From positions 3,038,001-3,102,000 of the forward strand of contig CP114117.1 in assembly GCA_029959195.1 (NCBI GenBank): a stretch of 64,000 nucleotides of DNA, given 5' to 3'. Position 1 is the first letter of the stretch. Each line of letters starts with the position of its first letter. The notes under the pieces are model-generated. The model was not told the DNA's origin and searched no databases. It saw only the letters and a program-made list of their open reading frames with translations. Made by a program: the position numbers and the translations under genes. This document shows, piece by piece, positions 17,757 to 60,783 of this stretch. This DNA is from Dictyophora rubrovolvata (taxonomy: Eukaryota; Basidiomycota; Agaricomycetes; Phallales; Phallaceae).

Positions 17757-20700
17757 TCAGCCTTTTATACAAAAAGAGCAGGAATGTGACTGACTTGTAT
17801 TGTTGTTGCCGGTCTGTCTATTAGTAAACAGTGCGCCAGGACTAAACCAGCTAGAGCTTCCCGGACTGTCATTTCTAGTATAACTCACTTCCTGGGCTGT
17901 CTGTCTAGTAGTAAAACTACTATTATTGTATGTTTCAATCCTGGTTTCAGTATTTCTTTGTTCATTGGAAAGAGCAGTCGTAGCCGGTGTTGAGATCGGT
18001 GGACTCGTTTCGGGAGAGGTGACCAATGGTCTCTCTAGTAAAACTTATCAACGATGAGGATTATAAGACGTAATGACACACATACCTGTAATATATCCTG
18101 AAGATGGAGAAGACATATATGTGTCACCCGACATCGAATGAAAATCGTCCACAGTCGAAGTCATCGCTCTAGATGCAGGTGTGCTTTCACTTCCAGAATG
18201 GAATACCGTAGACGCGGAATCTCCGTCGTCAGTTGGTGTGAATAAATTCACGGTTCTGTCATCTGCTGAGTAGAAGCTAATCGGTCGAGACGACGTCCCG
18301 TCAGTGTAACCTGCGACTGTCTGAACGTCAATAGTCATAGCTGATTCGTCATCGTGAAAATCGACCGATTGATCACTTTCAAAGTCGATATTGGGTACCT
18401 CTTCAGGTGTTGGGGTGAAGTTTCGGCGTGAGTATTCAATGTCGGCGACGGTTTGTATGACGCTGGTTTGCTCTTCATCTTCATGAGTCGAAACGATCAA
18501 ACTCGATTGCAGGGTAGACTGACTTAGGGCAAGCCCCTTGTCCTCCGAGTCGGAAAGTACAGATTCGACGTTTCCAGCATCAACAACAGCCTTCATCGAT
18601 GTCCTGATTAGACTTATATCGGATGGTCTTATTGTGCCTGTGGTTTCAACGGAACCTTCTGAAGTCGTTATCATAGAATCCCGTCGGGATGGTGTTGGAA
18701 TTATAATATGGCTGTCCTCGTGGAGGCCTTCCTGATGAACGAGACTTGCACGCAGCGTGGATTCCATGGAAACAGAAAGCTGCTGACTATCTATTATGTA
18801 CGAGTAAAATGAGTCAATCATAAGTAATTAAACTAGATTTTCAGCGCCACCTTCGTATGTAGATCCCTCCACAATGCCTACAGTACCTTCCGACTTCTGA
18901 GCTATCATTTCAACAGCAGAATCGCGCAATTGTTCGGACTCGTGGCTCTCCTGAACAACCGACGTAACTCCTTCCGTCGTCTTTGATTCCACCGATGACT
19001 CAATAATGTGCACATCGGTACTAGCGGTTCGATTGTCGGAGCTAAGGGAGGTCTGTCCTTCCGTGATATTAGTGGTTGTCTGGTTAAATGAACTTTCCGT
19101 GCTGTTAACGGCTTCGTTGGTAGCTGAAGAAATCGTTGAGGTCCCAGTAACAGCCATAGATACTTCAGCTACACCCAACATCACCGAAGCGCCTGTGGGT
19201 TCTCTGCCGTCATTCGAGATCGCTGTTTTCTCACTCATATCACCAGCGGACCTAGATTCGAGAGCTCCTACTATACCAGTCGAGGCCGTCACAACAGTTG
19301 ACCCAGTCTCCGACGTGGAAGCTTCTGCGATCTCAGAATGTATCACGACCTCGCTTGAGCCCTCGGAGACGACCACCCCTTTCACTCCCGCGGCAACTTC
19401 AACGGTTGGCCAAGCACCCGCGTCCGTCGTTGCAGCTGTGGAAGGTCCTATGTCGTGATTTGACGCAAGAACGATTTGCTCAGTAGTTTGTGTGTCGATA
19501 TCAACATTATTTGAACCCCCAACAACCCGTTCGAAAAGCGTCATATCGGAAGATCGAACCATCTCCGATTCTGTAATCTGAGCCGTCAAAGTTGAGGTTT
19601 GAGCGGCCGCTCCTGAAGCTTCCGCAGACACACTGGCCTTTGTCGATTCTGAGACCTGAGCTTCCTGCCCAATTTGTTCAGTTGCATCCATTGAGGCCCC
19701 CGTTGTTACTGTCCCTAAGGTCATGGTCGTCGATTCTACAACGCTGTGCGCGTCCTGCGTGGCGGTGGAGCTCTGAAGAACTTGAGACCCAAGATCACCA
19801 ACTAGAGTCTCGCTAGTCGAGCTGATCGAGGCTCCAGCTTGAGTAACGGATGCAACGTCTCTTTCCACATCCTCCGTCGCCTTAACATCTTCAATAATAC
19901 TATGAACAGAAGTCTCTTGAACTTCGGCAGCGATTTCGGTATGATGCTCTTCGTGAATAGCCGCGACATCTGAAGTAGCAGTAGTCTTGACAAGGTTCTC
20001 TCCAGTAGCGCTCGAAGTACTCTCGTTGGAAATCTCGAGGTGAGATCCTGTCGTTATTGCTTCTGTAACGTTTTGCTGGTTTTCCGCGGGAATTGATGAA
20101 CTTTCCTGAACGGAAGCGTTCGCAGTTTCGGTTGCTTCATCAGAGCGGATGCTTTGCGCGGATACTTGAATTTGCTGACTGAGCTCAATACCTTGGGCAA
20201 CAGTTCGTTCAGCTTGAACGGATTCTGAACCAGAGACCCGCTCGGATATAGTAATCAGCTTTGTCTCACTGTCAGCGTCCTGAGAAACTAAGCGTTGGTT
20301 AGTTTAGATATTTCGTGTTGATAGATTGAAATAACTACCTTCATCCGAAGCCGCGATTCCGGAAGTTACGACAAGTTGTGCCTCTGAATTATCGGTTTGC
20401 CCTTCGGATATCGCTGATGTTTCCATTGTCATTGAAGCGACGCTGTCTTGCACTAAAGCCTGAGATATGCATCCGCTTGAGGACTCTGCAGCTGTTGCTG
20501 TTGCTGTGTCCTGCGCCGTGGCTCCAGAAACCATTAGCGTCGAAGATTCATTCTCTTCTACCTTCGAGACACTGGCTATTGCTGTATGTATTTCAGTAGA
20601 CGTCACCGCAGATGTCTCCATAATCTCAGTTTGCCTTTCGGACGTTGCTGAAGTGACGTTGTCTTGCGCTAAAGCCTGAAATATGGATTCATTTGAGGAC

Positions 20701-23700
20701 TCCACAATCGGCGCTGCCGTTGTATCATGCACCGTAGCTCCAAGGACTATGGCCGTTGAATCAGTCTCTTCTATCTTTGAGACACTGGCCATCGCTGTTT
20801 GTGTTTCAATGGACGCCGTCGCAGATGTCTCCATAGTCTCGGTTTGCCTTTCGGATGTCGCTGATGTTTCTACCGTCGCTGAAGTGACATTACCTTGCGC
20901 TGAAGCCTGAGATGTGGATTCGTTTGAGGATTCCACCTGCACCGTAGCTCCAAGAACCATGGCCATCGAAGTTTCATTTTCTTCTACCTTCGAGATATTG
21001 GCCATCGTTATTTGCGTCCCATTGGACGCCGTCGCAGATGTTTTCGTAGTCTCAGTTTGCCTTTCAGATGTCGCCGATGTTTCCACCGTCGCTGAAGCGG
21101 TGTTACCTTGCGCCGAAGCCTGAGATATAAATTCGTTTGAGGATTCCACAACCGTTGCTGTCGTTGTATCCTGCATCGTAGCTCCAAGGTCCATGACCGT
21201 TGAAGATCCACTCTCTTCGGCCTTTGAGGCACTGGCCATCGCCATATCAGTAGATGCCGCCACGGATGTCTCCGTAGTGACTTCAATCGCTGATGCTGCA
21301 TGGGTGACACTCGATTCGGCATTTCCTTGGCTGACTGAAGAAGTAACGGTATTCGCATTCGTTTGAACGTGTGCATTGTCGAGCTGCGCAATTATTTCAG
21401 AAACAGTATCCGATGTCGTACGTGCAAGTATCTCTTTTGTTGTCGTTTCCTCAGTAGCTGCGCGAGTGGAAGACTCGCTTTCCACGTATTTCGTATTAGA
21501 GCGACTTGTACTCTCCGTAACCGCGACTTCGTTCTTTGAAGTCGCTGCAGACGTATTCTCGACGACCACCACTTGAGTATTCTCGACGGCCACCAATTGA
21601 GTATTCCCCGATTCGAAAGCAAGAGCGGAGCCGGTACCCGTTATTTGATTTTGACTTTCGGAAACAGTGGCTGTCTGCGAAGCTGTACCGGGTTGAGTAA
21701 AGGTCAATATCGCCTTTGAGTTGTCGGCTACCACTTCCAAACGAAGTTCTTCTGAGACATTCTGAATTTCATCGGCCCTGACCTGGGTATTCTCACAGGC
21801 GGTCTCTTGACTGGTGGCCTCGCCAGACACGTCGCCTTCTCTTCGTGTCACTTCGATAGTGGATGCTTCGAGAGCTTTCGCTAATTGAATGTTAGGTATA
21901 GAAGAGAGAGGGCAATGTGAACGCACTTTGTTCCATAGTCTCTACTTGGGACATCGAGGAGGCATCTACGATGGACACAATCGTGTTATTTGCACTTTGC
22001 TGCAAACCAGTAACGATAGTTCCGGATCTCATAATATCGTTTCTTGTGTTCTCCGCGAATGATGTCTCGGTGCCAGTACTACTTGCGGTGATATCATTTC
22101 GAACTTCGGAACCGGAAATTGTGGTTTCCGCGACTTTGGTGGATGTGCTCAAACCGGTGCTAGTAGCGAGTCGCGTCTCTGCATCATTTCGTAGACTCTC
22201 CACGGAGGAGGATATTTGATCGGCATGAACATTAACGTAATCGAGCTCTGCTATTGAATCGCTTAGATCTAAATCAAGTTAGGTCGATGGAAATATCATA
22301 TAGACTGGTAATAATCTACCTTGTTTGGACTGAAGAACACCCTGTGGCTCGGTAGTCGCGGTGCGTAGCTCAGAACTAGATTCTTTATAAGCAGCACTCT
22401 GATGTAAACCTTGCAAAAATCCAGCTTCTGTATGACTATAAGTCGATTCGATCGATTCGGATGACAATCTTTCATACGAAGAATGGATGTCTGGTCGAGT
22501 TTTCGAGGCTTCTGTGAACTGAGAGACACCCGAGGAGTCTATTTTTGATGCGAAGGTATTTTGTGTCGTCGTTCCAACAGCGGTCCCTGAATTCACTCGT
22601 CCTATAGTGATCGTTTCGGTAGTAGCACGCAGATCTGTGCCCTCCTCTTTTGTAATGTTCACAAATGAATCGACACCTAGGAAAAGTCAACGCAAAGTAG
22701 GTACGACTTTTGAGCACTTACTTTTCGCCGAATGAACAGAGTCTGATAGCATTTTTCCTCGAGTTATTTGGGTGGGTTGATCCACATCTGTTAGCTCAGA
22801 GATATCTGACAGTTGCGTGACTTGTTCATCTGCTCGCTGCTCAACCGGCCCTACTTCTCTTGTCCAGTAACAACAGTCATCCAAACATACACCCGTCCCG
22901 TGAGTGCGACTCTCCACCTTATGACAGGATTTCGGGCGGGTCTTCACTGCTTTAACATGAACAGTTGATGAATTGGAAGAATCGCTCAAAGAGAGCACCT
23001 CCCTCTCCGATGACTCGTCATGGTGCACCTCAACAAAGTCAGAGAACGACGAGCCCTGTCGCATCAGAGAAGGACGCTGGCGAGAGTCCAGTCCAGATGA
23101 CGTATCAGCGGTCGAGGTAGTTATTCCAGTCTTGTCGACTATCTTGCTTGTTGTTGCACGTGAAGCATCCTCTTGAACAGCAGATGAGGCTTCAACTTTG
23201 AGTCCCGATGTTGACAATGAACGCGACTGCGTAGACGAAGTCTGGCCGACTTCGGATTGGATACTGATGGAAACGTCAACATTCTTTTCGAGCGTAGAGT
23301 TGTCGCTTTGGCCGACCAGAGTGCTCGTTCTTGCGGGTGAATATGCAGGTGGTGGATCATCCTGTAATGGAATTGAGGACGATGCGGTGGTGTATAACGT
23401 ATCTTTCAAATTAGCTGATGAAGAACTTGAAGCAATGACTGGAAAAGCCGTTATAGACGTTTGTGCTTCAATTTCTTTAGCTTTAGAACCAGACAAAGCG
23501 GACACCTTCGAGCTGGAGGATGAAGCCGTTTCTTCGTCAATAGTGGTCAAAGATTGTTCGATGACATCCTGAGACGTTGGCGAAACCTTGGGCGATGAAC
23601 GAGAGCTTGGTACAGTGACAACAAGGTCGACAGGTGACGAGGGTTCCAAAAGGATAATCGAAGGGATATCAGATTGCTTCTGTTTTTCTTGCTGACGAGA

Positions 23701-51764: not shown

Positions 51765-53096
51765 GTTGATGTTAGCTGATTATAGTTGTGCGTGTGGTTC
51801 GCGATGGGATGTCTAGTAACATGAGGGATAATAAATGTTTTTGAACTTGGTGTGATTTGAAATATTAGGCGAGGCGAGATGGTTGGGGAGTACGAAGAAG
51901 ATTCATCATTAGTCACTTATTGCCAATCATGATTTCCAAGACAGACGCACGGTATTCAAATGGCTAGCTCATATTGATCATTTCTGTTTGAACCAGCGAA
52001 TAGAATCTGAATCGTTTCTAAAGGACGTTCAACGGGTCAGAGTCAGTCTCGCTAAAGACACCCTTAAATTTCGGCGGGGGCACTAGCCAAGAAGCTTTTT
52101 GTAAGTACGTTGCTGGAGAATTCACACATTATACATGGACTGGATGAACACCATTCGGGAAAGGATTCTCGCCGAAATGGACCTGCGAAAGAGCGCGAAT
52201 CAACGGCCCAGTGTATTAAGTTTCTAGTACGCTATACGTACATAGTAATCATTTGTAATTTGACATACAGATTTCCAGAAGGCCCATCAGTGTGAGCGAC
52301 AATCTATGTCATCGATCATCAAACATCTTCCAACAGCACACCAGCTTAGCAATACACAGTCTGGGTCTACTTCGCGTTCGCTGGCGGAGAAGATAGCCAC
52401 GCAAGCGCGCCGCTGCGCGTGGTTCCCTAAGCGATGTGCCAGGATTAAAGGCGCAGCAGCACAGTTCAACACGTTTGTGATGTGATAAAAGTATTCTACA
52501 ATCCATTGAGGATTGAGGATTTAAAAATATCTTCACCAAGTTTCATTGTGGGGGTTGGTACCCGTATTACATTTACACAGTAGGATACTACGTCATCCTT
52601 CGTTTGTAGGCCATTGTTTATATTTATTCCTTTGTGCGCGTATTCACACATCTGTACGTACAAATTTCTATGTAGAATCTCGAGTACTATTCTGCCCCTC
52701 TCATCTTCTCTTACTTACTCTCTGCGTGACGTTTGACGTCATTCAAATAACCGCGGGAAAGGAATGGTTTACTATTATCAGTAGTCACAAGAATTTTTGA
52801 ATAAGAAATATCATGTTTTAGTGGAAGAGAGCCAGCACTATGTAGATGAACGAAACCACTGATATGTAACTACTTGAACAGGTACTGGAATATGCTGCTG
52901 TGGTGTTTTTGAGATGCAATTCTGATACATGCACAACAAGAGTGAACAGGAAAGAAAGGGAACCAAATGATGAGTGTGAGTCAAGAAAATAGTGTAGGAT
53001 AGGAGTTGTAAAGGTAGAGGAGTGAAAAATAAAGCTTGTGCTTGAATTCAAACTGAGGGGAAAGTTGCAATACAAAACTGAGGAATTGGATGATAT
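51765..53096. other. Intergenic DNA before the LTR cluster
   Basis: No gene recognised. The GST promoter lies at the left side. Short open frames around 52,110-52,800 lack support. Confidence 0.4.
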
Positions 53097-53436
53097 TGTT
53101 AGGGCAACTCAGGGCACACACCTAGAGGAGGGAAAACCTAAGATCTATACATGGGGAATGACTAGCTACTCACCTAGAGGAGGGAAAACCTAAGAGAAAA
53201 AGCTTAGGGATCCCCCTCTAGGGAAAACGACTACATATATGTGAGTACAGGTGCTCAGCGGATCCCCATGGGATCCATGGCGATAATGAGTGAAAACAAG
53301 AGAACAAGTTGGAAATGAGAATTGAATGGAAATGAATTGAACGAAGAAATGAGCAATGAATGCGAAAAGAACAGGAAAATGGGAAAACGGAAAAGGAGAA
53401 CGATATACTACTAAGTGTTGCTAGCATACTGTGACA
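53097..53436 (+). mobile_element. Solo LTR A (LTR retrotransposon fossil), 340 bp
   Basis: Begins TGTTAGGGCAACTCAGGGC and ends GCTAGCATACTGTGACA, with a perfect 5-bp target duplication GATAT on both sides (53,092-53,096 and 53,437-53,441). Near its start it carries two copies of CACCTAGAGGAGGGAAAACC, the second forming a hairpin arm. It has no internal coding region. Complete as an LTR; relatively young, given the intact duplication. Confidence 0.9.
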
Positions 53437-53571
53437 GATATTGTTGGTCTTAAAACCGCAGATTTTTATATACAAAGGTAGCTCAGTGTCTGAGTGAAAA
53501 ACGGAACACTTGTAATCTAATTGTGAACAAGACAAGGTAAAATCATTATGGAAAAATGAATACATGGTCTG

Positions 53572-53977
53572 TGTCAGGGCTACTCTCTCAGACTAGAGGG
53601 AGGGGATCCTAAGCAAAATATATTCTAGGAATAATACTAACTCACCTAGAGGGAGGGGATCCTAAGAGAACAAACTTAGGGATCCCTCCTCTAGGGCTAC
53701 TAACTATATACTATGAAAAACGGCAAAGGCCACACGTGGCCTTCGGTTCATGGACTAGGCACGGATACGCGCCGGTCCTGGACTTTTAGCCGGGGCCTAG
53801 GCCATGGCTCTGATGAGAACGGGCGCTCAGCACCCGTTGAAGGAAAAATGGGAATACGGAAGGAGAGGGAAATGCAAGAGATGGGATAGAATACGAGAAA
53901 TATGGAAATAAATAAAATAGACCAGAACCGAAGATAAATGTAGAAAAATAAGGGGATGATGCTAGCGTACCCTGACA
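53572..53977 (+). mobile_element. Solo LTR C (fossil), 406 bp
   Basis: Begins TGTCAGGGCTACTCTCTCAG and ends GCTAGCGTACCCTGACA, with a perfect duplication GTCTG (53,567-53,571 and 53,978-53,982). It is related to LTR A: same hairpin near the 5' end, same GTGCTCAGC-like element, purine-rich 3' half and similar last 18 bases. Only 135 bp separate it from LTR A. Confidence 0.92.
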
Positions 53978-55286
53978 GTCTGGGGATTGGAATTTAAGAG
54001 AAAGAAAAAGGTTTCACCAAGTGATTAAAATGTAAAATAAGGGAAAAATATATAGCAAAATGTGAACACCAAGAAAAAGCTAAGTTTAAAGGCAATACAG
54101 CCTTTATAATCATCATATGGAACCCAACCTCAGCACATCAACATCTATCACGTCATTTCGAGATTGAACAACGGGAGCTGCAGGAGTCAAAGACGAGGGT
54201 CTTGCACAGTGTCATGATCCAAATTCATGACATCACTAGCGATACGGATTCCTTATTTTATTCCCTTATCATATCGTATCTAAACGTTATCTTATCACAA
54301 TCGCTTCGCAGATGCTACGACTGGAAGTCTTGCCAGACTTCATTGCCATTTCACAAAGTCCTAGACACTGTCGTCTTCCTAGGACTTACAGTAAGCTGCA
54401 GATAGACCTTTGGTCTACATTCTAGTTCCAAACCATGCATGAGATCATCTATGACAATTGTAGGTGTTACGCACTGGAACACGTGTACGAAGTCTGGCAA
54501 GGTTAGTGCGAGAGATAAACGGTGGGCTTCAACTTGCTCTTGAGTTGCACCCTCACTGTGCACGTCCATTAACTTCAAGCTATGTGGTCGTGACATCTGA
54601 CACGCTCACACATGGTTCAGACAATGCATTACGATATCAAGAGACATCGTCCTGAGCAAGACGGGGAATGCAGGTTACAACCACGTCATACGATGGGCAT
54701 GAGAGTTCTGGTGACATCGTGTATGTCGCCCCAAACATCAAGATAGAGATTCTAAGATTTGAGATGAAACATCGGCAGTGTCTGCAACACTGCCCATGGT
54801 GAAACGAGAGATTAAGAAGAAGAGAAGGTGTTTCAAGGAAGCTCGGTGTAACAAGTAACAAGGCAAAACTTTTATTGATATCAGAACAGAAAAAGTAGAT
54901 ACATTTAAATTGATCCTTTTATAGAAATGAAACGTGATGACCAATATGAAAAAAGAATGATGTGGACAAGTTTGGAAACGGCGACTTCGGGGAGTTGCCC
55001 AATAAGGAATGGGCGGGGTTTCGGGAAGTTAAGTGAGGTTACGTACACACTAAGTGGGCGTAACAGTAGGTCCTTGTATATGTTCTCCCTTTGTTCTTGT
55101 TGCCTCATGTTTGCCATATGGCAAACCGACCCTGCATATACTTATGATACTCACGAATTGCTATGACATGTATACATTCTCAAGTTCATTATCTATTTCG
55201 AACTGAGATTCAAACCTCTAGCATACTTGTATATAAAGCTTTCTATACATTGTAGCTAGACTTCGCTTTAGACTTAATATTGAACC
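53978..55286. other. DNA between solo LTRs, with one copy of a dispersed repeat
   Basis: No intact gene. It contains the repeat at 54,450-54,620 that recurs at 58,930-59,105. Confidence 0.4.
54450..54620 (-). repeat. Dispersed repeat, copy 1 (about 170 bp)
   Basis: Shares strings such as GTACGAAGTCTGG, GGCTTCAACTTGCTCTTGAGTTG and CCATTAACTTCAAGCT with 58,930-59,105. The minus-strand translations are alike (HSLKLMD-HSEG-TQEQVEA). Origin unknown; possibly a fragment of a mobile element's interior or of a gene. Confidence 0.8.
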
Positions 55287-55571
55287 TGTCAGGGTACACT
55301 AGTGTTGTCCCCTTATTTTTCTACATTTATCTTCGGTTCTGGTCTATTTTATTTATTTCCATATTTCTCGTATTCTATCCCATCTCTTGCATTTCCCTCT
55401 CCTTCCGTATTCCCATTTTTCCTTCAACGGGTGCTGAGCGCCCGTTGTCGCACACCAAAATCTTCCTAATAAGGAAACGTTCTGATTTTTGGTTCAAAGC
55501 GGAGTTTCAAACTACCAAAAACTTAACCAATACATCACAGCCTCTCGAAATCAAAACCCTTACAAAAAAAA

Positions 55572-56153
55572 ATGGCCGCATTTTCATTTCACTATACATC
55601 ATCAATCTCTTTGCCCATTCCAGCATCTCCCACTGAGTCATTACCCCCCTCCGACGATGAATCTATATCACCTTTTCATTTTTCGCCTTCCAGTCCAAGG
55701 ACATATGATTTGGATCTGCATACGACTCTTTATATCTATAGTTCCCAATATGCGAGTCTCGACATCGACGAAGAAACGTACCTCCCGAAGTTCCCTCCAC
55801 CTCTTATTATTCATCAATGCAGAAGTTCGGATTTGGTTCACCCCGGTCTCATGTTTGGAGAAAAGGTTTATATCGAGGAACGATTAGACTGGTTTACAAT
55901 TATCAACGTTTATTCTACACCCGAATCAGCCGTTAAAGACTCATATCGGATTTGGTTAGTGACACAAGAAGGGTTCGAATTTACATTCCTGGTTCTAGAT
56001 GTGCCAAGTCGTTGGGTTGTCATGAAAAACATAAAAATGCAAAAACATAGCCCATATAGACCAGCCAATCTTGTTCCTGTAGATCCTCAAATGTCTCGTT
56101 TTTCACCCCATTCGCCAGAACCAATATCTCTCCCCTCTTCTCCATCCAAATGA
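55572..56153 (+). CDS. Insertion ORF1, 193-residue protein of unknown family
   Basis: Starts MAAFSFHYTSSISLPIP after an A-rich leader (CAAAACCCTTACAAAAAAAA), a good context for translation. A polar Ser/Pro N-terminus is followed by a possibly beta-rich core: LHTTLYIYSSQYASLDIDEE, LPKFPPPLIIH, YRIWLVTQEGFEFTFLVLDVP and RWVVMKNIKM, then a Ser/Pro tail. There are no introns, no signal peptide and no membrane segment. It is a diverged paralogue of the next ORF: spacing and residues match over about 100 positions. No known family recognised. The full-length frame with natural codon use argues for a real gene. Confidence 0.7.
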   Translation: MAAFSFHYTSSISLPIPASPTESLPPSDDESISPFHFSPSSPRTYDLDLHTTLYIYSSQYASLDIDEETYLPKFPPPLIIHQCRSSDLVHPGLMFGEKVYIEERLDWFTIINVYSTPESAVKDSYRIWLVTQEGFEFTFLVLDVPSRWVVMKNIKMQKHSPYRPANLVPVDPQMSRFSPHSPEPISLPSSPSK

Positions 56154-56309
56154 TCCTTCCGAAAGATCCGACGTGTTTGCTCAAACCTTCTTGGACGAAA
56201 TTAGGACAAAAGGCTTGATTAGGATAAGCGATTAGATTTGTATTTCATCTCCTTCTTTCTTTTTGGACATTTCATTAGCGCTTAAAAATTTTGGTTAACT
56301 CATATCATC

Positions 56310-56888
56310 ATGTCGGACAATAACGATACTCCTACTTCCCCTATTCCCCTTTTTCAACTCCCTTTCTTCCCTTTTGAATATCATTCTTCTCTCAGATTCA
56401 GACCCAACCCTAATTTCCTCTCACGACTTCACGTTTACAATACTCTTGTTTCTGAAATTGATGTCGACCCCTCCACAATGCTTCCGATTACTCCACAGCC
56501 ACTAATGGAGATTACTATTCCTTATGACGATCTGGAGATAGGATATCCACGAGCTTTAACCCTGTATGAACGAACCAATGTCAATGTCATGGACGAATTG
56601 TATGAGTTTGTCGAGTTCCTTTCAACAAATCGTCAAGAAGAATCAATCTGGAGACTGGTCTTTCGTCATCAATTTCGAAGTTATACTCAATTCTTATTCA
56701 TAGATGCACCCCTATCTGCCATCCCATCCCCTCCCGACTACTCTGTTGGAAATCAAACCCTCCCTTCCTATTCCAATCTCCAATCCAATCTCGTTCAAGA
56801 TCTGGTATTGTTAAGCGTTGCCATAGCCATTATTATTGCGCCACAGCCACGAAGAAGAAGATCTCGTCAACAAGAACCAGATCAGTAA
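56310..56888 (+). CDS. Insertion ORF2, 192-residue paralogue of ORF1 with C-terminal hydrophobic segment
   Basis: Starts MSDNNDTPTSPIPLFQLPFF, 156 bp after the ORF1 stop and in the same direction. The core LHVYNTLVSEIDVDPSTMLP, PQPLMEI, IWRLVFRHQFRSYTQFLFID lines up with LYIYSSQYASLDIDEETYLP, PPPLIIH, IWLVTQEGFEFTFLVLDVP in ORF1. The C-terminus adds a hydrophobic helix, LVLLSVAIAIIIAP, followed by RRRRSRQQ, which looks like a tail anchor with basic residues. Function unknown. Confidence 0.7.
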   Translation: MSDNNDTPTSPIPLFQLPFFPFEYHSSLRFRPNPNFLSRLHVYNTLVSEIDVDPSTMLPITPQPLMEITIPYDDLEIGYPRALTLYERTNVNVMDELYEFVEFLSTNRQEESIWRLVFRHQFRSYTQFLFIDAPLSAIPSPPDYSVGNQTLPSYSNLQSNLVQDLVLLSVAIAIIIAPQPRRRRSRQQEPDQ

Positions 56889-57977
56889 GAAGTTTGGGAT
56901 GGTAAGATTATAGTTTTGGGTAAGAGGTAGCGCGAGAAGTGCCAGATGGTGATTTTGATAAAGCTATGCTGGGAATCCGGTTTCATCGTCTTCTTTTGAT
57001 CTCTTTTTGTTTCTCTTTTGTTTCTCTTTTTGTTTCAACATATTTCTCCTATTCCCCCTAACCACATATGTGATTCCCCTTTTTTTTTTTTTTAATTGTA
57101 TCCTCCATTGTTTTCTCCTTTTTCTTTTGTTTCTTTGTTCTCTTTTTGTTTCCTTTTGTTATCATGATGAATGATAAGTGATCATTCCGCTTTCCTTTAT
57201 GTTTCCAAATGGTATAAATACTGCATGTAAATACATGTAACAGCAGCAATCTACCGGAACGGTTGTCTCAAGTTTAGTTCAGTTTAAGTCAAGATTCAAG
57301 TCAAGTTTCATCTCTAGTCTATTTCTATGCTCACGTCTATTTCTTTGGATTACTCTGAGTGAGGCCTCGGAGTATAAACTCAACGATTCGTATTGTCATT
57401 GAAGCCTTACTAACTTTAAAAACAGATTATCATCGCTGTATTATCGACAGCGTATTGACTCACCATTTTTATCGCAACTCACATTTATCGTCCCCCTCAC
57501 ACACACACGATCTTAGGATCATCATTTTTTTATTGTTGTTGGTTTTATATCGACGCACACACACACTCTAAATATCATATTATTCCCTCACCCTCCTCCT
57601 TACGAAATCAGCACCAGGACCCGCTCCATGGAGACTAGACGGCCTCAAACAAAATATCTTTGTAGTTTTTCCGATTGTATATATAGCTATGACATTTAGC
57701 TATTATCTTCGGATCGTTACACCGTTCTCATCAGAGCCATGGCCTAGGCCCTGGCTAAAAGTCTGGGACCGGCGTGTATCCACGCCCAGTCCATGAACCG
57801 AAGGCTGTGTGTGGCCTTTGCCGTTTTTCATAGTATATAGTTAGTAGCCCTAGAGGAGGGATCCCTAAGTTTGTTCTCTTAGGATCCCCTCCCTCTAGGT
57901 GAGTTAGTATTATTCCTAGAATATATCTTGCTTAGGATCCCCTCCCTCTAGTCTGAGAGAGTAGCCCTGACAGAACC

Positions 57978-58433
57978 TAGTTCGATATCTCAATATAGTC
58001 TTCTTTATTCATTAACACTTCAGTCATTTCCAAATGCTTTAAATCCAAACCATCTGTAGCGACAACGCCATTCTGGTGTTGGATCCACTACTTCTTTAAT
58101 CTCCTCTTTTTCTGCTTCCTTGTCGACAATCTATTCCTACAGATTGTTCTAGACTTTCTAGAGCTTCGGCTCAATGACATTCTTCAAAGATTCAAAGGTC
58201 CCAAGCGTTGTCAAGACAAGTAGAGCTAACATTCAGAGGACTGTTGTGGTACCACTCAGGTTGAGACCACACTCTACAACAATCCGGTGACATTTGTATT
58301 AATATTAGATACGAACTCTAACGTATATACATTTGTCATCGATACCCGAGTATCGGTACTTAACAGATATTGATCATATAAACAGAGTATTGGCGGTAAC
58401 CTTAAATCATTGTAGTAGAGTGTATGTTGGATG
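57978..58433. other. DNA between LTR D and LTR E
   Basis: No gene recognised. Confidence 0.4.
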
Positions 58434-58787
58434 TGTCAGGGTATGCTAATGCCGTCCCTTTCATTTCTTCCATTTATCTTCGGTTCCTATCTATTTTATT
58501 TATTCCCACATTTCTCATATTTTATCCCACTCCTTGTCTTCCCCTTTCCTTCTGTATTTCCATTTTTCCCTTCAACAGGCGCTGAGCACCTGTTCCCATC
58601 AGAGCCATGGCCTAGGCCCTGGCTAAAAGCCTAGGACTGGTGCATATCCGCGCCCAGTCCATGAACCAAAGGCTGTGTATGACCTTTGCCGTTTTTCATA
58701 GTATATAGTTAGTAGCCCTAGAGGAAGGATCCCTAAGTTTGTTCTCTTAGGATCCCCTCCCTCTAGTCTGAGTGAGTAGCCCTGACA
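58434..58787 (-). mobile_element. Solo LTR E (fossil), reverse orientation, 354 bp
   Basis: Same family as C and D, with TGTCAGGG...CCTGACA borders on the plus strand. It is shorter because it has only one of the two AGGATCCCCTCCCTCTAG units found at one end of C and D. It is clearly more diverged from C and D than they are from each other. Its flanks (GGATG and GTTTC) do not match, unlike those of A, C and D. Confidence 0.85.
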
Positions 58788-58929
58788 GTTTCGTTACCCC
58801 TTTATCACATTTGGGAGTCTTAGTTCTAGGCCTCATTATGTGATTATATAGGGGTTCCTCCTGTGCAGTTGCTGTCCCACTCCTGGGTATGTTCTTTCTA
58901 ATTGCAAGAAGTTTCCTATCATCATAACC

Positions 58930-59105
58930 GTGGTCATCGGTTATCAGTGTTACGTGCTGGAATGTGTGTACGAAGTCTGGTGAGGTTAGTGTGAGAGATA
59001 AATGATAGGCTTCAACTTGCTCTTGAGTTGTGCCCTCACTGTGCGCGTCCATTAACTTCAAGCTGTGTGGTTGTGACGTCTGACATGGGAGCACATGGTT
59101 CAGTG
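58930..59105 (-). repeat. Dispersed repeat, copy 2
   Basis: Second copy of the 54,450-54,620 repeat, in the same orientation and diverged by point changes throughout. Confidence 0.8.
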
Positions 59106-59339
59106 TAACATTTTGTTACAGATAGTGTAGCCCAGCTCTTACAGGTTCACAAGGTAACAGTGGAAAACTGTATATTCACAGGTAAATGGTAAGAAAGGCT
59201 ACCGGCACCTTTACTGCCTAGCGGTATTTTGTACACGGTGTACGGCGCCTACATACTATTACATAATCATGCTACATAGTGCACGTGCTAAGTCACATGT
59301 TGTAGTATAATGGACTTATGCCTAAGTCCATAGGGTATG

Positions 59340-59650
59340 TGTTAGGGCAACTCAGGGCACACACCTAGAGGAGGGAAAACCTAAGAGAAAAAGCTTAGGA
59401 ATCCTCCTCTAGGGAAAACGACTATATATCTATGAGTACAGGTGCTCAGTTGATCCCCATGGGATCCGCGGTGATAATGAATGAAAACGTGTGAGAATGA
59501 GAGTTCAGTCAAAGACTGAATTCGAGAGAACAAGTCGAAAATGAGAAATAGTTAGAAATATGAGAAAGTGAGAAAGGACGGAATAAACACAGAGAGAGCA
59601 TGAATACAGGAAAATAGGAAAACAGAAAGTGTCGCTAGCATACTGTGACA
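59340..59650 (+). mobile_element. Solo LTR B (fossil), 311 bp
   Basis: Begins TGTTAGGGCAACTCAGGGC and ends GCTAGCATACTGTGACA, like LTR A. It has only one CCTAGAGGAGGG unit before the hairpin, where A has two. Flanks GTATG (left) and GTATA (right) agree in four of five positions, consistent with an aged target duplication. Confidence 0.85.
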
Positions 59651-60004
59651 GTATACATCCGCTATCAAAGCGGAATCATTACAATTTTCAATCACTTCCT
59701 CAAACTTCGAAGTCTTGAAGTTCAGATCATTTCATCATCCAAACCATTTCTCTTATTTCCATTTCCTTCGATTGAACTCTCAAATTGCTTCGCAATCCTT
59801 GAACTTATCACTGCGGATCCTGCAGAGATCTTTCTATTGATTATAAGCACTTGTCCTGTAGTGTATATAGTCTCTATCCCTAGAGGGAAAACCCTAAGCT
59901 TGTTCTCTTAGGTTTTCCTCCCTCTAGGTGTGTAGTTAGTAGTTCTGCTCAGTAGATCTCTTAGGTTTTCCTCCCTCTAAGTGTGTGCCCTGAGTCGCCC
60001 TAAC
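59651..60004 (-). mobile_element. Solo LTR F (fossil), reverse orientation, diverged subfamily
   Basis: In reverse it starts TGTTAGGGCGACTCAGGGC and carries the same hairpin with two units. Its second half shares only the GGATCCGCAGTGATAA block with A and B. The left border is uncertain because it abuts LTR B: the TGTGACA at the end of B may be shared. Right flank ATCAC. Older than A, C and D. Confidence 0.7.
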
Positions 60005-60783
60005 AATCACATTATATCTATAGTTTTCTTCGTACAATGGCTTCGGAATAATAGAGTTGTTGTTGCCTGATATCACAAGGGGTGCATCAGTGAGAGAAAA
60101 GATGAACCATATCCACAGCAAGACATGGAGTAAGAAATCAAATGAGAATTACTGAGAAGAACAGAACAATCTGTATTCATAGCGGTGTAAAGTCCTAATA
60201 TCAAAACTCCGAAATAGAAACGGCTTCCCTGACCGAAACGGGAAGAAGCCGGCTCATAATCAACACATACATATAAATATAAACGTGCACAAACAACGTG
60301 CAGATGGAAGCAAATTCTACGGGGGTGGTGAGCCCTTGCTGCATGGAAGGGAATGACTCTTCATTGGATGATTGCTCTGCCAATCTTCCATGGTTGGGTC
60401 GAGATAATCTCCAGACTCCCCTTGAATACATCGCGAATATGAAAATTAGCACAAAATTAACACAGCGTCCAGAAAATAAATCCGACATAATGTAGCTCAA
60501 TCTGGGCGCTTACTTCTCATGTGCAAGTCTGCCGCTCTAGTAAAATTTATCTCGCGTTCCCTAGATACACGCCGAGATATTTATTGTTTCAAAGGAGAGC
60601 TTGGCGTGTAGTTCGGCCGCTCAATTGGCTTACATGCCTCGACAAACCCGGGGGTCCATCAATATTGATGTCGCATGCGTTAACACCTCTTCTTTATCCC
60701 ATAAATGCCCATCCTCCGTCCTTTCCGCTACTTTCGTCCTTTCGTTTCAGTGTGTAACCCAGCTTTATCGGCGCTGTTTGAAG
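60005..60783. other. Intergenic DNA right of the LTR cluster
   Basis: No gene recognised. A 99-residue minus-strand frame at 60,201-60,500 has no support. The 100 bp before 60,784 are C/T-rich and probably the promoter of the next gene. Confidence 0.4.

Follow-up and report, generated by a model that had tools for sequence, protein, structure and literature searches.

A nested insertion in Dictyophora rubrovolvata, probably a Ty3/gypsy-type solo LTR with two small putative genes

A solo LTR by nature carries neither enzymes nor a partner LTR, and the target duplications of LTR elements are 4-6 bp long. Solo LTRs of the Ty3/gypsy group (Metaviridae) begin and end with TG...CA, have TGTNR at their termini and are flanked by a target duplication. 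LTRs do not usually code for protein (PMC4667437). The precedent known for a protein-coding gene within an LTR is MMTV, where the single retroviral gene sag is located in U3; of 527 shortlisted sag contigs, 490 were classed as solo LTRs (PMC4667437). Retrosat2 of grasses combines LTRs of more than 3.2 kb with an extra ORF of unknown function; this ORF0 precedes the gag-pol ORF and, in the accessible part of the source, is not described as an LTR gene (PMC3485330). TGTNR is the terminal pattern of the vast majority of Gypsy LTRs, but also of Ginger, and Ginger1 makes 4-bp duplications with CCGG and CCGT/ACGG among its targets (PMC2836005). The PlavakaA transposons of Agaricomycotina have TGT..ACA ends (PMC12730594, section 3.2.2).

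The insertion described here interrupts an older LTR, called LTR D, in a 64,000-nucleotide stretch of contig CP114117.1 (the window). It shares TG...CA, the TGTNR ends, the target duplication and the lack of an enzyme of its own with Ty3/gypsy solo LTRs, and differs from them in its length of 2.28 kb, its two ORFs, the 4-bp duplication that comes with the TG...CA reading and in that no full element was seen. The likeness to MMTV sag concerns the arrangement only, and no homology is claimed. Long LTRs and an extra ORF are what makes Retrosat2 comparable. The insert is probably a nested solo LTR of the Ty3/gypsy type, 2,276 bp long, whose long U3 would hold two small putative protein genes in a sag-like manner. 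We infer its family and its mobility from its termini, the duplicated target and the lack of any other hallmark in a single copy. The features are as follows.

55287-55445, plus strand: left part of LTR D, ending in the left CCGT copy (55442-55445)
55442-55446, no strand: left CCGTT, target duplication (4 or 5 bp)
55446-57721, plus strand: insertion on the 4-bp reading, proposed solo LTR, TGTCGCA...CGTTACA, 2276 bp
55572-56153, plus strand: ORF1, putative, 193 aa from ATG, stop included
56310-56888, plus strand: ORF2, putative, 192 aa from ATG, stop included
57213-57220, plus strand: TATAAATA, possible TATA box of the proposed LTR promoter (weak; single occurrence)
57722-57726, no strand: right CCGTT, target duplication (4 or 5 bp)
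57722-57972, plus strand: right part of LTR D, beginning with the right duplication copy

LTR D (55,287-57,972) is an inverted copy of LTR C (53,572-53,977, minus orientation), to which it aligns in two segments sharing the duplicated target, and the interruption of this 406-bp LTR amounts to 2,275-2,276 bp. When the insert and one CCGTT were removed by script, the joined segments 55,287-55,441 and 57,722-57,972 gave 406 bp, the same length as LTR C, with 390/406 positions identical and transitions at all 16 of the positions that differ. LTR C contains the empty site, GCGCCCGTTCTCATC, while the junctions in LTR D read GCGCCCGT/TGTCGCACACC on the left and GATCGTTACA/CCGTTCTCATC on the right. 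GAACC is found on either flank of LTR D. An earlier, sequence-only reading of this DNA had claimed that the halves of LTR D sum to the length of LTR C, that GAACC flanks LTR D, that CCGTT stands at both insertion junctions and that the insertion was a separate event later than LTR D; coordinates, arithmetic and the split LTR with its duplicated CCGTT bear out all four, the T at 55,446 being ambiguous between a 4-bp and a 5-bp duplication. It is thus confirmed that the interruption of LTR D was a distinct and later event that left a target duplication of its own.

When it comes to the interior of the insert, no terminal direct repeats of at least 12 bases were present at both ends among the 13 direct families listed, the nearest approach being a pair of 18 nt (78%) at 55541 and 57598, and no inverted repeat links the ends beyond TGT/ACA. 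The insert is thus neither a complete short-LTR element nor a transposon with long terminal inverted repeats (TIRs), and a complete short-LTR element (TRIM) lying within it is ruled out by the same lack of terminal direct repeats. Neither end is a poly-A tract or a simple repeat: the right end is GATCGTTACA (TGTAACG on the reverse strand) and the left TGTCGCA, with no A/T run, and a LINE or SINE insertion was ruled out on this ground. A Helenus TRIM was ruled out as well, since no tRNA-like sequence is found in the insert at the Rfam gathering score. The sole Rfam match in the window at this score is a tRNA gene on the minus strand at 2149-2232. AATAAA and ATTAAA are absent from the plus strand of the insert. 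A Pfam search gave 0 families for ORF1 or ORF2 at E up to 5. The missing terminal direct and long inverted repeats and the missing Pfam family are as a solo LTR predicts. In this single copy no paired LTR, PBS, PPT, reverse transcriptase or integrase ties the insert to a retrotransposon.

The T at 55,446 can be assigned to the duplication or to the element. In the former case the duplication is CCGTT and the element spans 55,447-57,721, with the ends GTCGC...TTACA; in the latter the duplication is CCGT and the element spans 55,446-57,721 (2,276 bp), with the ends TGTCGCACACC...GGATCGTTACA. Both CCGT and CCGTT fall within the 4-6 bp range. Altogether there are three readings of the junctions, namely a 5-bp duplication and two 4-bp duplications, with either the T or the last C assigned to the element, and TG...CA arises only when it is the T. 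On this reading TGTNR is present at both termini, as TGTCG and, on the reverse strand, as TGTAA. The background of TGTNR in the window is 0.0086 and 0.0084 per base on its two strands, and the chance of finding it at both ends in one of the three readings is p about 2.2e-4, compared with p about 0.012 for TG...CA alone; a looser pair of 7-base patterns, picked after the fact, gave about 1e-5 and was given no weight. Terminal motifs were compared only once the insert ends had already been seen. The last seven bases, CGTTACA, match the 3' integrase motifs given for rGmr1 (CGTNACA) and Sushi (CNTNACA), and the 5' end, TGTCGCA, mismatches the 5' motifs of both at the fifth base (PMC3601003, as far as the source is available). 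From TGTCGCA...CGTTACA on the 4-bp reading we infer an integrase-type signature, that of a Ty3/gypsy LTR. With such ends, and with a solo LTR needing neither enzymes nor a partner, a solo LTR would be the simplest reading.

The sequence-only reading had described the insert as having two ORFs and as lacking a poly-A end, long terminal inverted repeats and any recognisable transposase or reverse transcriptase, and these descriptions hold, the last as far as Pfam families are concerned. It had also found no recognisable LTR and concluded that the insert fits no known class; these two statements are not supported, as on the 4-bp reading the insert has TG...CA with TGTNR at either end, the Ty3/gypsy LTR signature. 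What had been proposed as a possible new kind of gene-bearing mobile unit would keep its genes, now inside an LTR.

The same ends would also be expected of a nonautonomous DNA transposon that was moved by a Ginger-like, integrase-type transposase and has lost its terminal inverted repeats. TGTNR together with a 4-bp duplication speaks for such an element, and CCGT/ACGG makes up 24% of Ginger1 duplications (PMC2836005). However, the TIRs of Ginger1 are about 40-270 bp long, while the insert ends share only TGT/ACA; the ORFs have no transposase domain; and Ginger1 is reported, in the accessible part of PMC2836005, from four animal species only. This origin is therefore considered quite unlikely. 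Ginger1 proper was rejected as a class for the insert, which has its CCGT target but neither the long TIRs nor the integrase-like transposase, although a nonautonomous copy could lack the latter. PlavakaA was likewise rejected, as it needs a 2-bp duplication (PMC12730594, as far as the source is available) and the insert has GT before TGT and CC after ACA.

TG...CA needs a duplication of 4 bp, whereas the neighbouring LTR-like units show 5 bp: their 5-bp flanks match for C, D and F and agree at 4/5 positions for G, with the boundaries of F and G moved by hand one base from the printed ones. These neighbours, and the agreement of five bases at the junctions of the insert, would favour a mobile element of unknown type, or a novel sort of gene-bearing unit, that has a true 5-bp CCGTT duplication and the ends GTCGC...TTACA. 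The TGTNR ends would then have to be a product of chance, at the p of about 2.2e-4 calculated above, and this possibility is judged to be decidedly improbable.

The solo LTR favoured here is known from one copy. Apart from the insert itself, a blastn search of the window for a second one yielded nothing but short segments of low score or low complexity, and tblastn of the ORFs found nothing in the window below E 0.12 outside themselves. In viral contigs ORF1, ORF2 and their alignment gave 3, 5 and 126 pattern matches, respectively, and in bacterial and archaeal genome contigs ORF2 gave 56; none of these was confirmed, and the insert had no match among plasmids. A fungal element would hardly be expected in these collections, so their negative results carry little weight. 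No fungal LTR with its own ORFs was among the literature matches listed, subscription journals being mostly outside their scope. That no second copy is known, and that the codon use of the ORFs is host-like, would also fit an origin without transposition, in which host DNA with two genes was inserted by break repair and the duplication represents filler or the repair of a staggered break. This leaves both the duplication and the TGTNR ends to chance and is regarded as the least probable of the origins considered.

Stop to stop, ORF1 and ORF2 comprise 208 and 200 codons. When the insert was resampled 1,000 times under a first-order Markov model, the longest ORF had at least 208 codons in 2 resamplings and the second longest at least 200 in none. 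With codon use trained on ten long ORFs of the window, the own frame was the best of six for both. When 172 ORFs of 80-210 codons were ranked by frame gap, ORF1 and ORF2 were placed 5th and 10th, the training set for this ranking being nine ORFs, with a long low-complexity one left out and one of 175 codons lying within the ranked size range. The frame gap of ORF1 is 0.162 from ATG and 0.172 stop to stop; since the gaps of four of the 12 ORFs that 52,400-60,300 contains besides these two are in the range 0.14-0.165, ORF1 is not distinct from the best of them. The codon support for the two ORFs as genes may thus be called modest.

The two predicted proteins also resemble each other weakly. Their local alignment score of 68 was reached by 1/2,000 full shuffles and 10/2,000 shuffles within 20-residue blocks, and the semi-global score of 49 by 4/2,000 and 31/2,000, respectively. 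BLASTP of one against the other, run on a single subject sequence and with no composition correction, gave E 2e-5, while tblastn within the window gave E 0.12-0.14. ORF1 and ORF2 may therefore be diverged duplicates, for which this resemblance is suggestive but does not settle the matter. Searches of the PDB by sequence gave 0 matches for ORF1 and a single one at chance level (E 0.57) for ORF2. AlphaFold2 models had a mean pLDDT of 50.5 for ORF1 and 40.0 for ORF2 (two-row alignment) and are too poor for use; a Foldseek search of the PDB with the ORF1 model yielded 717 matches when E values up to 10 were allowed and none when the limit was 0.001. The two models have a similar order of strands, which does not count as independent evidence because either protein was used in folding the other.

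It is also conceivable, if unlikely, that the insert is a solo LTR in which ORF1 and ORF2 are not functional genes, which is compatible with the LTR part of the favoured explanation. Searches of Pfam, the PDB (at E 0.001) and viral contigs found no relative of either ORF, a search of bacterial and archaeal contigs found none of ORF2, and the codon signal of ORF1 is no better than that of the best repeat-area ORFs outside the insert. Against this stand the ORF lengths, which exceed those of the Markov resamplings, the preference for the own frame in both and their weak mutual resemblance.

For a solo LTR with two putative genes the following course of events may be envisaged. LTR D was formed first, as its GAACC flanks and its match to LTR C show. 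An integrase, suggested by the ends, would then have joined a full element into LTR D, whereby CCGT was duplicated, and recombination between the LTRs of this element would have deleted the internal region and left one LTR. Such a loss is known from a mushroom: a MarorGypsy-26 copy in Marasmius oreades has retained just one LTR (PMC9674265, as far as the source is available). Both ORFs have remained open, and as putative genes they would sit in U3, upstream of the possible TATA box at 57,213. It can be guessed that the putative proteins have an accessory role for the element, for instance in regulating its own transcription or in escape from silencing. More tentatively, and with somewhat less than even confidence, the insert might represent a family of fungal retrotransposons with two duplicated accessory genes in the LTR, so that its solo LTRs are portable two-gene cassettes that arose independently of MMTV sag. 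If the insert is indeed a solo LTR with genes inside it, repeats of this type, which tend to be classified as inert remnants, could disperse small genes across a genome, and gene models predicted within them could represent LTR-borne genes, neither host orphans nor gag-pol relics. A shift of one base in the reading of a target duplication can, moreover, mask the LTR signature of an insertion.

The CpG ratio of the insert is 0.94, close to the 0.97 of the window, while lower values were obtained for E (0.34), F (0.47), C (0.69) and the right part of LTR D (0.33); these pieces are short and not uniform, and the left part of LTR D has 0.99, so the depletion is not shared by all older LTR pieces. 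Together with the nesting in LTR D, the ratios suggest that the insert is younger than most of the surrounding LTR pieces.

Other repeats are found nearby. LTR C has GTCTG on both flanks, and six of the 16 transitions that separate it from LTR D are in CpG context, the pattern expected of deamination in methylated repeats. LTR E (58434-58787) is a relative of C and D (304/353 and 309/353 identical); some 50 bp are missing close to its right end, and its flanks, ggatg/gtttc, show no matching duplication. A solo-LTR-like unit at 53097-53436, TGTTAGGG...GTGACA, has GATAT on both flanks, and a related unit at 59340-59650, also TGTTAGGG...GTGACA, has GTATG and GTATA, which are 4/5 alike. The LTR cluster is bracketed by a direct repeat of 157 nt (86% identical) at 54464-54620 and 58947-59103. 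Farther away, a long minus-strand ORF rich in Ser/Thr contains tandem 213-nt units that are 72-85% alike, at 20510-21149.
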